This document shows, piece by piece, positions 3,488 to 60,653 of a stretch of DNA of 64,000 nt. Under the pieces are notes generated by a model. It did no database searches. It saw nothing but the letters and a program-made list of their open reading frames with translations, and had not been told where the DNA came from. Numbering within the stretch: position 1 is the first letter of the stretch; each line of letters begins with the position of its first letter. The position numbers and the translations under genes were made by a program. The stretch spans positions 1 to 64,000 of the forward strand of contig CAIJRD010000001.1 in NCBI GenBank assembly GCA_903822975.1, written 5' to 3'. Source of the DNA: an uncultured Sinobacteraceae bacterium (GTDB taxonomy: Bacteria > Pseudomonadota > Gammaproteobacteria > Nevskiales > Nevskiaceae).

Positions 3488-4903
3488 TTAAAGCGGAAGC
3501 TGCGCGTCGGGATCGAAGCTGCCGCCCACGGCGAGCAGCAGGTTGATTCGGGCGATGGCCTGATCTGAAACGAGTTCGACGTGCTCGCCACGTGCAGACA
3601 GCACACGGGTCTGGCTGCCGAGCACAGTGAGGTAGCTGGTCATGCCGTTGCGATAACGTTCCTCGGCCAACTGATAGGCCGCCTCGGCCTCGTCCAGCGA
3701 CTTCTGCTGGTCGATCAGCTCCGCATCGAGTGCGCGGATCAGGCTTAGCTGATCTGCGGCTTGTTGCACCGCATGCAGGACCGTCTCGTTGTAACCATCG
3801 ACGGCGGCGTCGATTTCAGCGGTGGCGCCGCGGTATTCCGACCTCAGACGCCCTGCATCGAATACCGGCAAATGCAGCGCGGGCCCGGCGCCGGCGCTGC
3901 CGGAGGCGGCCTGGAACAGGTTGCCGAATCCGATCGCACTGGTCGCAGCGAAGGCAACCAGGTTCACGTCGGGGTAGAACGCCGCCTTTGCCGCAGCCTG
4001 GCCGGAGGTGGCAGCTTCGACACGGTCGCGCGCCGCGAGGATGTCGGGGCGGCGGCCGATCAGGTCCGCCGGCAGCGCCGTTGGCAACGGCAAGGCAGCA
4101 GCGGGATCGAGGCTCGGCGTTTCGATTGCGGCATAGGCCTCGGCGCCGTGTCCGCTGAGCGCGGCCAGTTGGTGGATAGTCAGCTCGACCGCAGCCTGCG
4201 CCTGCTTCAGCGCGACCTGCGCTTGCGGTACCGCGCCTTCGGCCTCGTGCAACTCGATTTTGCTGTCGAGCCCGGCATCGACGCGCTTGCGGGTGATCTC
4301 CAGAATGCCCTGGCGCTGCGCCAAGGATCGCTGCGCCACCTCGGCAAGCGCATGGTTACGGAACAGCTCGACATAGCCCTGTGCGACCGCACCACTGAGC
4401 GCCAGGCGGGCGCTTGCGGCATCCAGCACTTCGGCGGATGTCTGCGAACGCGCCTGTTTCAGCAGCGAGGACTGACGGCCCCAAAAGTCCAGATCCCAGG
4501 ACAGATTCAGACCCTGCGAACCTTGCCAGTAGGTGCCGCCGGCGAACGGCGGCGGAATCTCGCCGTGGCGGCTGAAACGCTCGCGGGTCTCCTGCGCGTC
4601 GTACGACACCGACGGGTACAGCCCGGCGTTGCTGGCATCGGCCATCGCTTGCGCTTCGCGAACTCGTGCCATCGCCTGTGCAAGGCCGGGGTTGTTGGCC
4701 AGTGCGTCCTGCATCAGGCGATCCAGTTGGGCATCGCCAAAGGCGGCCCACCAGGTCTGCGTTGGCCGCTGCATCGCGCCCGACGCGGTAAGGCCGAGCG
4801 TGGAGCCAGCTATCGGCTGCTGCTGCGGCCCGGTTTTCGGCACGGTGACGCAGGCGGTGATCGCCAAGGTCGCGGCGAAGGCAGTGAGGCGGAAGGTATT
4901 CAT
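3488..4903 (-). CDS. outer-membrane factor lipoprotein, NodT/OprM family
   Basis: A 471-residue RND/MFS-type outer-membrane channel. The start at 4903 gives a lipoprotein signal peptide with lipobox ITAC (Cys20) and is preceded by AGGAAA; the 16 residues upstream in frame do not look like a leader. The body shows two homologous halves typical of TolC-like proteins: long amphipathic helices rich in Ala, Gln and Glu, and strands such as YPSVSYDAQETRERF and YPDVNLVAFAATSAIGF. It lies between an AhpD-like gene and emrA in one operon and should be the exit duct of the pump. OprM-like and NodT-like names both fit. Confidence 0.92.
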   Translation of the reverse strand: MNTFRLTAFAATLAITACVTVPKTGPQQQPIAGSTLGLTASGAMQRPTQTWWAAFGDAQLDRLMQDALANNPGLAQAMARVREAQAMADASNAGLYPSVSYDAQETRERFSRHGEIPPPFAGGTYWQGSQGLNLSWDLDFWGRQSSLLKQARSQTSAEVLDAASARLALSGAVAQGYVELFRNHALAEVAQRSLAQRQGILEITRKRVDAGLDSKIELHEAEGAVPQAQVALKQAQAAVELTIHQLAALSGHGAEAYAAIETPSLDPAAALPLPTALPADLIGRRPDILAARDRVEAATSGQAAAKAAFYPDVNLVAFAATSAIGFGNLFQAASGSAGAGPALHLPVFDAGRLRSEYRGATAEIDAAVDGYNETVLHAVQQAADQLSLIRALDAELIDQQKSLDEAEAAYQLAEERYRNGMTSYLTVLGSQTRVLSARGEHVELVSDQAIARINLLLAVGGSFDPDAQLPL

Positions 4904-56505: not shown

Positions 56506-56597
56506 TACGTAAGCTCCGGAAAACCGTAACGCGCAGTCCGCGTTCGGCGCACAATTGGAATTGATTGGGTCCAGCAAAGACCGCCGAATATTACACG

Positions 56598-57308
56598 ATG
56601 GCCTCGCCATTGTGCCCAAATGCCACCCCTCCCGACCCGCCTTTCTTGAACACGCCAGCGCCTTTCAATCCGTTCCGCCAAGCCCGTTTTCTGCTGTCCG
56701 CCGCGCGCCTGATGCAACTGCCGATGGACCAGGCCGGCGAGGCCGCGTTCGTCGGCCGTTCGAACGCCGGCAAATCGAGCGCAATGAACAAAATTTGCGA
56801 TCAGGGCGGTCTTGCGCGCGTGAGCAAAACGCCCGGCCGCACCCAGTTGATCAACCTGTTCGGGCTACCCAGCGGGCATCGCCTGGTCGATCTTCCGGGC
56901 TACGGTTTCGCGCAAGCACCACTCGAGGTCAAGCGCGCCTGGGGCCATCTGGTCGGTGGCTTCATGGAGCATCGGCCAAATCTGCGTGGGGTCGTTGTGG
57001 TCATGGACATTCGCCACCCGCTGACCGATCTCGACTGGCAGATGCTCGAATGGGCGCGGGCGCGCGAGTGCGCGACGCACGTACTGCTGACCAAGGCGGA
57101 CAAGCTCGGCTTCGGAGCGATGAAAAACGCGCTGCGTGCTGTTGAGGCGCAGTTGCGCGAACGCGCATTCAACTGCAGCGTGCAGGCGTTTTCGTCGGAG
57201 AACGGTATCGGCCTCGAAACCGCGCGCGAAACCGTGCACCAGTGGCTGCTGGATACGCCTGCGCCAGCCGAGCCCGCGACGGACGACCCGGCACCAGACA
57301 AGGCTTGA
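56598..57308 (+). CDS. engB: ribosome-biogenesis GTPase EngB/YsxC
   Basis: A 236-residue GTPase for 50S assembly. G1 GRSNAGKSSAMN, G2 KTPGRTQLINLF, G3 DLPGYGFA, G4 TKAD. A C-terminal Pro/Ala-rich tail. ATG 56598 is 54 nt into an open frame and fits the family. Divergent from cytochrome c4. Confidence 0.96.
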   Translation: MASPLCPNATPPDPPFLNTPAPFNPFRQARFLLSAARLMQLPMDQAGEAAFVGRSNAGKSSAMNKICDQGGLARVSKTPGRTQLINLFGLPSGHRLVDLPGYGFAQAPLEVKRAWGHLVGGFMEHRPNLRGVVVVMDIRHPLTDLDWQMLEWARARECATHVLLTKADKLGFGAMKNALRAVEAQLRERAFNCSVQAFSSENGIGLETARETVHQWLLDTPAPAEPATDDPAPDKA

Positions 57309-57516
57309 GTTAGCTACCGGTTGAGTTCGCCGCCGGTTCAGTTAGCTGTCGCTTGAATTAGCCGCCAGTGCGCGTCGAAGCCGTAGACCGGAGTCGCGGG
57401 CTTGATCGCAGCCGCTGCTGTTGGTCGAACGTGCTGCTGGAACCGCGCGGTGTTGTCGGTCGCAGGCGCGTTCGTGACCGAACGGCCGTCCGCTACGACG
57501 CGGACAATTCGCACAC

Positions 57517-57634
57517 AAAAAAATACCCGGCAGGTCGGGGGAACCCACCGGGTAACGAGTTCCGGCTTGGGGGAGCCGGACGAATCCGCCCAGGGAGTGA
57601 AGGCGGATGAACGGGAAAGGGAGTCACCGTTCGC
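57517..57634 (-). ncRNA. predicted small RNA, sX13-like, four C-rich-loop hairpins
   Basis: The minus strand between polA and engB folds into four consecutive hairpins. 57609-57632: GAACGG stem, loop TGACTCCCTTTC. 57584-57608: ATCCGCC stem, loop TTCACTCCCTG. 57561-57580: TCCGGCT stem, loop CCCCCA. 57525-57553: ACCCGG stem with CCCCC loop, followed by a seven-T run. The -10 candidate TATCTA at 57640-57645 predicts a transcript of about 118 nt. Size, position beside polA and C-rich loops agree with Xanthomonas sX13, which as I recall pairs with G-rich mRNA leaders. The rest of 57309-57812 holds no gene. Confidence 0.75.
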
Positions 57635-57639
57635 AAAAT

Positions 57640-57645
57640 TAGATA
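57640..57645 (-). promoter_or_regulatory. putative -10 box of the sRNA
   Basis: TATCTA (extended TATCTAAT) on the minus strand, six or seven bases before the first hairpin. A good -35 is not obvious. Confidence 0.45.
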
Positions 57646-57812
57646 CAGCCACCCCGCCTTAGTTCACCCGCATCGCAACAAATTTTTGCCGACTTTGCGC
57701 GAAATGTAAGCGAGTTGGTGCAAGGCACTGAAACGACAAGGATCGTTTTCGATCTTTCGCGGCGTGGCGAACCGTCGGTTGCCTCTAACTGCTTGATTGT
57801 TCTGCGTGCGGC

Positions 57813-60653
57813 TCAGGCCGCGCTGCTGACGTGACCGCTCGCCTGGTGGGCGGCGTCCCAGTTCGCACCCATTCCCCAATCGGCCACCAGGGGAACCGCC
57901 AGCGCTTTGACCTTGCACATGCGACCGGCAATCGCCGGCGCCAGCTCGCGCAGCTCGGCCTCTGCGCCTTCGAACACCAGTTCATCGTGGACCTGCATGA
58001 TCATCCGCACCGCCGGTGCGCGCTGCGTCAGCCAGCCAGCGACCTCGATCATCGCCAGCTTGATCAGGTCGGCGGCGGTGCCCTGCAGAGGCGCGTTGAT
58101 CGCGGTGCGTTCGGCGTACTGCCGTTGCGCACCGTTGCGCGAATGAATGTACGGCAGATACAGCCGGCGACCGAACAGCGTTTCCACATAGCCCTGTTGA
58201 CGTGCCTGCTCGCGGGTGCCGTCCATAAACCGCTTGACGCCGGGATAGCGCGCGAAGAAGCGATCGATGGTGTCCTGCGCTTCGCCGCGCGGGATGCCGA
58301 GCTGGCGCGCCAGACCGAACGCTGAGATGCCGTAGATCAGGCCGAAATTGACCGCCTTTGCGGAGCGGCGCTGATCGCTGCTGACCTGATCGGGCGGCAG
58401 TCCCCAGACTTCGGCCGCGGTGGCCTGATGGATGTCGAGCCCGCGGCGGAACGCGTCCTGCAGACGCTCGTCGCCGGAAAAATGCGCCATCAAGCGCAAT
58501 TCGATCTGCGAGTAGTCGATCGACAGCAGCGCATTGCCCGGCTCGGCGATGAAGGCCTGGCGGATGCGACGACCCTCGGCCGTGCGTACCGGAATGTTCT
58601 GCAGATTCGGATCGGACGACGACAACCGCCCGGTCGCCGCGACCGCCTGGTGATACGAGGTGTGGATGCGGCCGGTTCGCGGATTGATCTGCTTCGGCAG
58701 ATTGTCCGCGTAGGTCGAACGCAGCTTCGACAAGCCGCGCCATTCGAGCAGCAACTTCGGCAGCGGATGTTGTGCGGCGAGTTCTTCCAGCACGTCTTCG
58801 GCGGTCGAGGGATCGCCCTTCGGCGTGCGCCCGAGCACTGGCAGTTGCAGCTTGTCGTAGAGAATCGCCTGCAACTGCTTGGGCGATCCAAGATTGAATT
58901 CGCCGCCGGCCTGCTGCCAGACCTGCGCTTGCAACTCTTCCATGCGACCGGCGAGTTCGCCGCTAATTCGCACCAGCAGCTTGCCGTCGATGCCAACGCC
59001 ATTCCGCTCCATCTGCGCGAGCACCGGCACCAGTGGCATTTCCAGCGTATCGAACACCTGCTTCAAGGCGTCGATCTCGCAGACGCGCGGATACAACGCC
59101 TGATGCAGCCGCAGGGTGATGTCGGCGTCTTCGGCGGAATATTCGGCGGCCTTGTCGAGCGCGACCTGGTTGAAGGTGAGCTGGCCTTTGCCCTTGCCGG
59201 CGACATCGGCGAAATGGATCGTGCGATGACCGAGATATTTTTCCGCCAGCGTGTCCATGTCGTGCCGCTGTCCGGCGGCGTCGAGCACATAGCTTTCCAG
59301 CATCGTGTCGTAGGCCAGGCCCTGCAGCATCACGCCGTGATTGGCGAGCACGTTGATGTCGTACTTGGCATGTTGGCCGACCTTAGCCTTGGCCGGGTCT
59401 TCCAGCACCGCCTTCAACTTGGCGCGCACAACCTCCCATTTCAGTTGTTCGGGCGCACCGAGGTAATCGTGCGCAACCGGCACGTACCAGCCGTGACCAC
59501 TCTCGACTGCGAACGACAACCCGACCAGTCGCGCCTGCATCGCGTCGACGCTATCGGTTTCGGTGTCTGCGGAAATCAGTTCCGCACTTTCGAGGCGACG
59601 CAGCAAATCATCGAGCGCGGCCGCGTCGAGTACCAGCGTCGGCTGTGTGCGCGGCGAGTCGGCGATCGGCGCATCAGCAGTTGGCGCGGTCGGCGCCGTC
59701 GTCGTTGCAGTGCCCGCTACTCCCGCTACTCCTTGAGTAGCGGCCTGACCTTCCAGCTTCGCCACCGCCGTGCTGGCGCCTTCACCCATTGCGTTGGCGA
59801 GTTCGTCCGCCAGCCGGTTGAATTCGAAACGCCGATACAGGCCGAGCAGACGTTCGCGATCGGGCGGGCTCGGCACCAACGCGTCCAGCGTCATCGGCAG
59901 TGCCACATCGCAGCGGATCGTCGCCAGATCTTTCGCCATCGGAATCTGGCCGAGGCTCGCGCGCAGGTTTTCGCCGGCCTTGCCTTTGACTTCGTCCGCA
60001 CGCGCGATCAACGCGTCGAGCGTGCCGTATTCATTGAGCCATTTAGCCGCCGTTTTCGGACCGACCAATGGCACGCCGGGAATGTTGTCGGAGGTATCGC
60101 CCACCAGCGCGAGGTATTCGATGATGCGTTCCGGCGGCACGCCCCACTTTTCGACCACGCCGGCGGGATCGAGCCGGCGGTTCTTCATCGTGTCGAGCAG
60201 GTGCACGCGCGGCGTGACGAGCTGCGCCATGTCCTTGTCGCTGGTGACGATCAGCACGTCCGCGCCTTCGGCCTGCGCCTGTGTCGCCAAGGTGCCGATG
60301 ACGTCGTCGGCTTCCACGCCCGGCACCGCCAGCAGCGGCAGGCCGAGCGCTTCGACCAGTTCCACCAGGCCGGGATATTGCGCGCTCAGATCTTCCGGCG
60401 TGGCGTCGCGATGCGCCTTGTATTCGGCATAGATGTCTTCGCGAAAAGTTTTGCCGGGTGCATCGAAGATCACGGCGATGCGCTGCGGATCGTAGTCCTT
60501 GCACAGTCGGCGGATCATGTTGCCCATGCCGAAGATCGCACCGGTCGGCTCGCCGCGCGAATTATTCAGCGGCGGCAGCGCGTGGTAGGCGCGGAACAGC
60601 CAGCCGGACGCGTCGATCAGTACAACGGTCGACGGCGTGCTCACGGCGTTCAT
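57813..60653 (-). CDS. polA: DNA polymerase I
   Basis: A 946-residue polymerase with all three domains: 5'-3' exonuclease (1-290; DASGWLFRAYHALPP, GVEADDVIGTLA), 3'-5' exonuclease (about 345-530; ISADTETDSVD, and TLRLH near its end) and family A polymerase (LSIDYSQIELRLMAHFSGD, RRSAKAVNFGLIYGISAFGL, MIMQVHDELVFE). Linker near 295-330 is Ala/Thr/Pro-rich. Starts 4 nt after the lysA stop, so it is in one operon with lptM and lysA. Confidence 0.98.
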   Translation of the reverse strand: MNAVSTPSTVVLIDASGWLFRAYHALPPLNNSRGEPTGAIFGMGNMIRRLCKDYDPQRIAVIFDAPGKTFREDIYAEYKAHRDATPEDLSAQYPGLVELVEALGLPLLAVPGVEADDVIGTLATQAQAEGADVLIVTSDKDMAQLVTPRVHLLDTMKNRRLDPAGVVEKWGVPPERIIEYLALVGDTSDNIPGVPLVGPKTAAKWLNEYGTLDALIARADEVKGKAGENLRASLGQIPMAKDLATIRCDVALPMTLDALVPSPPDRERLLGLYRRFEFNRLADELANAMGEGASTAVAKLEGQAATQGVAGVAGTATTTAPTAPTADAPIADSPRTQPTLVLDAAALDDLLRRLESAELISADTETDSVDAMQARLVGLSFAVESGHGWYVPVAHDYLGAPEQLKWEVVRAKLKAVLEDPAKAKVGQHAKYDINVLANHGVMLQGLAYDTMLESYVLDAAGQRHDMDTLAEKYLGHRTIHFADVAGKGKGQLTFNQVALDKAAEYSAEDADITLRLHQALYPRVCEIDALKQVFDTLEMPLVPVLAQMERNGVGIDGKLLVRISGELAGRMEELQAQVWQQAGGEFNLGSPKQLQAILYDKLQLPVLGRTPKGDPSTAEDVLEELAAQHPLPKLLLEWRGLSKLRSTYADNLPKQINPRTGRIHTSYHQAVAATGRLSSSDPNLQNIPVRTAEGRRIRQAFIAEPGNALLSIDYSQIELRLMAHFSGDERLQDAFRRGLDIHQATAAEVWGLPPDQVSSDQRRSAKAVNFGLIYGISAFGLARQLGIPRGEAQDTIDRFFARYPGVKRFMDGTREQARQQGYVETLFGRRLYLPYIHSRNGAQRQYAERTAINAPLQGTAADLIKLAMIEVAGWLTQRAPAVRMIMQVHDELVFEGAEAELRELAPAIAGRMCKVKALAVPLVADWGMGANWDAAHQASGHVSSAA

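Follow-up and report, generated by a model that had tools for sequence, protein, structure and literature searches.

A conserved, probable small RNA gene between polA and engB of a Nevskia-type bacterium has four C-loop hairpins and appears to be a sister of sX13 and anti-hemB

Does the interval downstream of polA in a Nevskia-type bacterium encode a small regulatory RNA and, if so, of what kind? The authors of a study of Xanthomonas sX13 ask whether further polA loci encode sRNAs (PMC3771888, used here, like the other PMC records, in excerpt). In the window, the whole stretch of 64,000 nt analysed here (contig CAIJRD010000001.1, positions 1 to 64,000), a sequence-only reading had proposed an sX13-like RNA on the minus strand at 57517..57645. 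Our analysis indicated that this site very probably holds a real, conserved small regulatory RNA gene with four C-rich hairpin loops, with the following parts and flanks.

57813..60653, minus strand: polA, DNA polymerase I, upstream flank (ORF with Pfam PF00476, DNA_pol_A, and exonuclease domains)
57660..57665, minus strand: promoter −35-type element GAACTA (GAACT[TA] is conserved upstream of the copies; assigned to the sigma-E type by the consensus and by the similar rpoE motif in relatives)
57639..57643, minus strand: promoter −10-type element TCTAA, at a distance of 22 nt from the G of GAAC
57517..57634, minus strand: small RNA gene, predicted transcript about 115–118 nt (conserved block; fold z −5.76; match to positions 1–116 of covariance model R1, which has the window sequence itself among its training sequences)
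57609..57632, minus strand: hairpin 1, loop CUCCCUU (predicted fold; two-sided changes at 6 of 8 pairs)
57584..57608, minus strand: hairpin 2, loop UCACUCCCU (predicted fold; two-sided changes at 4 of 7 pairs)
57561..57580, minus strand: hairpin 3, loop CCCCCA (predicted fold; two-sided changes at 2 of 5 pairs)
57517..57554, minus strand: hairpin 4 (57554-57524), an intrinsic terminator with a CCCCC loop and a T7 tail (two-sided changes at 9 of 13 pairs)
56565..57308, plus strand: engB/yihA GTPase, convergent flank (ORF with Pfam PF01926, for which Pfam itself gives a 50S ribosome-binding GTPase and which we take to be engB/yihA)

The minus strand from 57645 to 57517 folded at −55 kcal/mol, compared with −35.9 (sd 3.3) for 200 shuffles, none of which was as low, and the predicted fold contained exactly the four adjacent hairpins that the sequence-only reading had described. 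The loop sequences that it gave, ACUCCCU twice and CCCCC twice, were confirmed, one A being part of the stem in the first copy, and its last hairpin, with 13 pairs followed by seven Ts, was called a terminator as claimed. The element was rightly placed just downstream of polA in the same direction, the polA stop codon lying 178 nt upstream on the same strand. The proposed span held for 57517-57634; the remaining 57645-57635 comprises the promoter −10 element and spacer, and the conserved block (44 copies from 30 loci) sets the 5′ end better at about 57634. At Rfam gathering thresholds nothing was found at the site, a tRNA being the only match in the window. A single copy of the element was found in the genome, whether by DNA similarity or by model. 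We rejected a coding reading because copy lengths taken modulo 3 give every possible remainder (16, 13, and 13 of 42), although frame 0 is open in 39 of 42; the 104-aa ORF at 57338-57652 was taken as incidental.

Of 61 genomes, 41, counting that of the window, contained the element by DNA similarity alone, and a pattern search of named genomes yielded 48 stretches, including ones from Nevskia, Solimonas, Hydrocarboniphaga, Panacagrimonas, and Salinisphaera. Thirty loci, one per genome and with the window's own among them, provided 44 copies in all. In 28 of these loci polA preceded the RNA on the same strand (of the other two, L016 starts at the RNA and L020 has no polA in the 1.5 kb examined), engB was convergent in 26, and 9 held two to four tandem copies. 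Covariance model R1, built from 42 copies, matched all 81 genomes of the order (at least 85% completeness), of which 27 had given a training sequence and 54 had given none. Each genome held one to six copies, and 34 of the 81 held two to six. The tandem copies suggest dosage or target diversification in these relatives. Four-copy arrays beside polA/engB were seen in two loci of the Nevskia type (L007 and L009), where every copy has its own promoter motif and terminator, and in two of the Salinisphaera type (L037 and L034).

The stems changed in a compensatory manner across these copies. Alignment A1 included 42 of the 44 copies, leaving out L011 (nearly identical to L010) and L016 (contig end); in its 41 distinct rows, 96.0% of pair cells were standard and 21 of 33 pairs showed two-sided changes, compared with only 31.5–53.4% paired in slid controls. 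The covariation score was 0.354 versus 0.186 in shuffles. A class-wide alignment (A2), drawn from 99 of the 124 loci L031-L154, showed 92.4% pairing and two-sided changes at 33 of 33 pairs, values that are biased towards the model because A2 was fitted to it. The loops were nearly invariant: CUCCCU occurred in loop 1 of 32 and loop 2 of 40 of the 42 copies, and CCCC in loop 3 of all 42 and loop 4 of 36. Mean column identity was 0.87–0.96 across the four loops, 0.84 in stems, and 0.83 in linkers. The sequence-only reading had named unconserved stems and loops among relatives as the result that would speak against it, and the alignments bore the reading out on this point. The compensatory stem changes and the presence of the element in all 81 genomes examined of the order indicate more than chance.

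Across the GTDB class, R1 matched 115 of 370 genomes (including the window's and one other training genome) at a cut-off of E 0.001 per genome, which corresponds to about 0.4 chance matches if the rough E-values hold; the other 255 gave no match under strict filters, which lose weak matches. The 119 class-level places considered below comprise the top place of each of the 115 genomes and, in addition, four second places, with other copies not being included. Position was not used in the R1 search, and neither flank nor promoter was used in building R1 or R2, a second model described below. Even so, polA lay just upstream on the same strand in 64 of the 119 places (median distance 155 nt, range 34–1263), and polA upstream and/or engB convergent downstream, the canonical orientation, was found in 93 places from 93 of the 115 genomes. 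In 29 places engB was present without polA alongside, and 26 were elsewhere or inverted, with neither gene in canonical order. Four loci (L096, L103, L113, and L123) had polA or engB in another orientation; L113 was counted through engB, and the other three were non-canonical. In L096, L103, and L123 the element is inverted between engB and polA; for L103 and L123 at least, the promoter motif shares the strand of the element. In family f25, extra copies (L087, L118, and L099) lie away from polA/engB in genomes that have a separate engB-adjacent copy; those of L087 and L118 are located between an RNA methyltransferase and a pseudouridine synthase, as read by eye.

Three features were absent from the sequence-only reading: the tandem copies in relatives, the engB anchor, and a sigma-E-type promoter. 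The GAACT-N-TC motif upstream of the element is one that we take to resemble the sigma-E/AlgU consensus. In the form GAACT[TA]-N14..18-TC[ATC], it was found no more than 80 nt upstream in 77 of the 119 class-wide places, compared with 1 of 116 far upstream and 3 of 119 downstream; 200 dinucleotide shuffles gave 0.97 on average and 5 at most. Measured between the G of GAAC and the T of TC, the spacing was 22 nt in 54 of these 77 motifs, 23 nt in 12, and 24 nt in 9; the base before GAAC was T in 38 and G in 33, and that before TC was G in 42. At the order level, 43 copies were not truncated at a contig end, and a looser regular expression that had no control of its own detected GAAC-N-TC upstream of 40 of them; 22 of the 23 array copies carried a motif of their own.

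A similar motif preceded the rpoE domain start by 71–120 nt in 11 of 14 non-Nevskiaceae genomes, based on the best rpoE match of each of 21 genomes and a slightly looser pattern, with 1 of 21 in the far-upstream control; in G039 the motif was found only farther away. Because it precedes rpoE in these genomes, we read the motif as a sigma-E-type promoter in the relatives. None of the seven Nevskiaceae genomes showed it before rpoE, the window genome included, where the better of the two RpoE genes over the cut-off was used. These seven loci without the motif are L227 (1150-1500), L246, L247, L251, L252, L254, and L255, and rpoE autoregulation through this motif seems to have been lost or changed in Nevskiaceae. 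A genome-wide search of the window's own genome with GAACTTN15-17TCTRA returned 6 matches versus 4 in the reversed control; the GAACTA of the small RNA would not fit this pattern. Since the rpoE genes of its own family are without the motif and no genome-wide enrichment was seen with that pattern, sigma-E recognition in the window genome is argued by analogy. The genome has eight TIGR02939 matches, two of them over the cut-off and thus RpoE-type genes; an RseA-type anti-sigma factor adjoins the better of the two, and an Hfq gene is present.

These results bear on the alternative that the GAAC/TC motif has been misread as sigma-E and that the RNA is a housekeeping sigma-70 sRNA or is served by another ECF sigma factor. 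The motif-free rpoE genes of Nevskiaceae and the multiple TIGR02939 matches of the genome would suit this alternative, as would sX13, which is described as constitutive, although its level goes up under salt and at 37 °C (PMC3771888). The sX13 promoter is partly degenerate, with both halves kept in 4 of the 6 sX13 sequences shown, as judged by eye. Against this stand the number of class-wide places that have the motif, its spacing there, its counterpart at rpoE in the other genomes, and the sigma-70 search, which found no consensus site in 57300-57850. We consider this alternative unlikely, and control by sigma-E remains the preferred reading.

The relationship of the element to known RNAs was examined with Rfam models below their gathering thresholds. 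The closest by score was anti-hemB (RF02837; 45.5 bits, E 1.7e-9, below its threshold of 49.5), followed by sX13 (RF02232; 26.4 bits, threshold 50) and the Betaproteobacteria toxic small RNA (RF02278; 17.1 bits, E 0.72, threshold 50). ErsA (RF01719) gave no match in the element up to E 10, and Spot 42, which is not known to have C-rich loops, had no Rfam match to it. RF02278 resembles the element in its CU-rich hairpin loops and terminator and differs in being a double hairpin; its match at the site, like those of S15, mir-1260b, Pyrobac-1, and PyrR205, was rejected as being at chance level.

The term sX13-like, used by the sequence-only reading, was appropriate for architecture and place, and probably for mode of action, but not for membership in the Rfam sX13 family. 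In both cases polA lies upstream on the same strand and stable hairpins present C-rich loops, and the location that the reading gave for sX13 is borne out by its description as 'always located downstream of polA' (PMC3771888). The same study notes that the enteric Spot 42 gene (spf) adjoins polA. In contrast to the four loops of the window RNA, sX13 has three C-loops (4C, 4C, and 5C; PMC3771888) and is reported only from Xanthomonadaceae, whereas the window RNA is of the Nevskia type and occurs in all 81 genomes examined of that order. With anti-hemB the element shares a hairpin containing CUCCCUG(A/G)GCGG and an engB gene convergent on the 3′ side, as in 5 of 5 Burkholderia-type (f175) loci. 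Unlike it, the window RNA is flanked by both polA and engB, whereas L291, the one f175 locus examined for this, has a divergent hemB upstream; the anti-hemB Rfam model has 81 positions and three hairpins, compared with four hairpins here. ErsA occupies the same polA-engB intergenic place (PMC8575079), and its true locus (G204) has polA upstream, a GAACTT...GTCATA promoter, and a C-rich terminator loop. The window element carries the sigma-E-type motif (57665-57639), a promoter type seen at true ErsA too, and may depend on sigma-E; the rpoE of its genome is without the motif. Hairpins 1 and 2 differ between the two RNAs, and in ErsA anr is the predicted pairing partner of a U-rich linker (PMC8575079).

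Scans of relatives placed part of the family within anti-hemB. RF02837 was over its cut-off in 2 of 21 genomes, comprising the window's own and 20 relatives, the window's not being among the two. Three sets of loci were scanned with Rfam (20 of the 30 in L031-L060, another 20, and another 18). All of the first 20 matched anti-hemB at E ≤0.05, 3 of them above the cut-off, and 5 matched sX13, all below it; 6 of the 20 further loci passed the anti-hemB cut-off. Part of the family is thus already anti-hemB by Rfam's rule. Copies of the Salinisphaera-genus array L037 matched sX13, anti-hemB, ErsA, and the alphaproteobacterial ar14. Twelve below-cut-off sX13 matches were found in the 370 genomes, 6 overlapping R1 places and 6 beside polA, and 12 below-cut-off ErsA matches, 8 overlapping R1 places and 10 beside polA and/or engB.

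Model R2 was based on 118 class-level matches, with a training set free of sequences from families f16, f96, and f175, and gave matches in 52 of 397 genomes across the phylum. In six f16 (Xanthomonadaceae-type) genomes the R2 match was sX13 beside polA (E 5e-6 to 6e-5), and all four of these that were checked against RF02232 were above its cut-off. In five f175 genomes, Burkholderia-type by score and gene order, all five R2 matches passed RF02837, and engB was convergent at each of them. RF02232 was above its cut-off in only 3 of the 370 class genomes, at places outside the R2 training set, which did hold at least nine loci passing the anti-hemB cut-off; the recovery of sX13 by R2 is thus independent, and that of anti-hemB is not. 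R2 did not match true ErsA in G204, and the link of ErsA to the family is a weaker, suggestive third. The window element shows the model match, covarying stems, sigma-E-type motif, and flank of this polA/engB-linked C-loop family, its sequence being in the training sets of both R1 and R2. Because sX13 and anti-hemB share its polA/engB neighbourhood and one model, we regard them as branches of one family, in which the window RNA appears to be the Nevskiaceae branch, sister to both and a member of neither by Rfam's rules.

Several other RNAs were encountered in these searches, whose fetched loci leave out a copy in G600 and a place in G489. Two f16 genomes contain a double-hairpin C-rich RNA away from polA that is distinct from sX13 (L146 3001-3082 and L293 4001-4086; R1 or R2). 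Family f96 has anti-hemB-type RNAs in ten loci (L295-L299, L301, L303, L311, L312, and L315), none with a sigma-E-type motif, which raises the question of a promoter switch; the four that were scanned (L296, L299, L301, and L311) all pass RF02837, and hemB adjoins in L311. In another class, L282 and L284 show three C-rich loops in a row near 4001-4120, with GGAACC upstream and not beside polA, and these may be an alphaproteobacterial C-rich sRNA family. An extension of the family to other classes was rejected: R2 matches in 12 genomes there were weak, with E values no better than 4.8e-6, and of their 13 places the 12 that were fetched lay beside neither polA nor engB.

Sharing of this kind could in principle reflect convergence, with sX13, anti-hemB, and the window RNA having their loops in common only as anti-Shine-Dalgarno mimics. 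Short C-rich hairpins do score across models, as illustrated by the R2 matches in other classes and by sub-threshold RF02837 matches in the E. coli, Caulobacter, and Deinobacterium control genomes, and the three below-cut-off sX13 matches fetched from G165, G263, and G073 lay beside neither gene (G116 and G318 were not fetched). However, true sX13, true anti-hemB, and the window RNA have the polA and/or engB flank in common, their hairpin order is identical, and they share the hairpin-2 core (CUCCCUGAGCGG and variants), to which the 3′ side of hairpin 2 in the window is similar and which was found in many class-wide copies. We judge convergence to be fairly improbable and favour common descent of the three RNAs.

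As to function, we consider it quite probable that the element is an independently transcribed, trans-acting antisense sRNA of about 115 nt from the polA/engB-linked family, which is expressed from a sigma-E-type promoter and represses mRNAs with G-rich ribosome-binding sites. In this reading, transcription would start from a promoter of the envelope-stress type (sigma-E/RpoE) located between the two genes polA and engB, and RNA polymerase would halt at hairpin 4. Rigid stems would then present the four C-rich loops (CUCCC twice and CCCCC twice), and a set of mRNAs would be kept from translation by the pairing of these loops with G-rich sites at or close to the Shine-Dalgarno sequence, as for Xanthomonas sX13. 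The family acting in this way would extend over Gamma- and Betaproteobacteria and contain sX13, anti-hemB, and perhaps ErsA. What is reported of these RNAs is as follows. sX13 is Hfq-independent, and its C-loops pair with G-motifs of targets, both being needed for repression (PMC3771888). ErsA depends on sigma-22 (AlgU) (PMC5819304). Anti-hemB occupies one table row in PMC3521395, and nothing on it was found in the excerpt of PMC5760752; it corresponds to Burkholderia RNA 7/ncS04, which is expressed in B. cenocepacia and unchanged in seven conditions, osmotic stress included (PMC5688073), a finding that speaks against the preferred reading. CU-rich unpaired regions of B. cenocepacia sRNAs are predicted to cover ribosome-binding sites, and both anti-hemB and the toxic small RNA appear in a table of that study (PMC5688073).

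A target scan covered 464 kb of the window's own genome (the window plus 400 kb) with 318 crudely predicted genes. At −20..−4, GGGG and GGGAG were each found in 4.1% of the 318 genes, compared with 1.6% and 0.6%, respectively, at −60..−44, a modest enrichment; at −15..−8, GGGG was present in 2.2% here versus 5.4% reported for Xanthomonas (PMC3771888). Pairing energies of the loops to the start regions of the 318 genes were about those of the coding control (medians −9.3 and −9.9; 5% tails −16.0 and −14.5, respectively), which left the scan uninformative as a target prediction. The hfq leader has no G-run, and the sX13-hfq link is therefore not repeated here. Two single sites, an AGGGAGU before a secreted-protein gene and a GGGAG before that of a TonB-type receptor (names by eye), are not claimed as targets.

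The pairing energies, which do not favour translation starts, would also be consistent with a decoy whose C-rich loops titrate an RNA-binding protein instead of pairing with mRNA, and several similar loops per molecule together with up to six copies per genome would suit titration. For sX13, however, both the C-loops and the target G-motifs were needed (PMC3771888), and we hold a decoy to be very unlikely compared with antisense repression. It is likewise highly improbable that the hairpins are the mere 3′ end of the polA mRNA (a compound terminator or a processed 3′UTR fragment with no promoter of its own), as their strand, their distance from polA, and the terminator at their end would allow, since a conserved promoter motif directly precedes the element, tandem copies nearly all carry their own motif, the loops are nearly invariant, places with engB and no polA exist, and 21 of the 26 places with neither gene canonical have a slightly looser form of the motif.

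The question of whether further polA loci encode sRNAs can thus be answered with yes, for every genome examined in one order and for 115 of the 370 sampled across the class, mostly with a common promoter type. Word searches of the open-access literature, which miss papers, found none linking sX13, anti-hemB, and ErsA, and none containing both ErsA and sX13; Rfam 15 lists the three families without a clan. The element is of a known kind, and the family-level picture appears to be new in the literature searched. A wider scenario, to which we give even credence for and against, is that the common ancestor of Gamma- and Betaproteobacteria carried a single envelope-stress sRNA gene between polA and engB, from which sX13, anti-hemB, ErsA, and the more than 100 RNAs reported here descend. 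The gene would be a core, largely vertically inherited output of sigma-E that silences G-rich ribosome-binding sites, with up to six copies in Nevskia relatives and Salinisphaera. If the family-level picture is right, findings on sX13 and ErsA would all bear on a single conserved regulon, and in many unstudied bacteria the sigma-E regulon would gain an RNA arm that lies below present family cut-offs.
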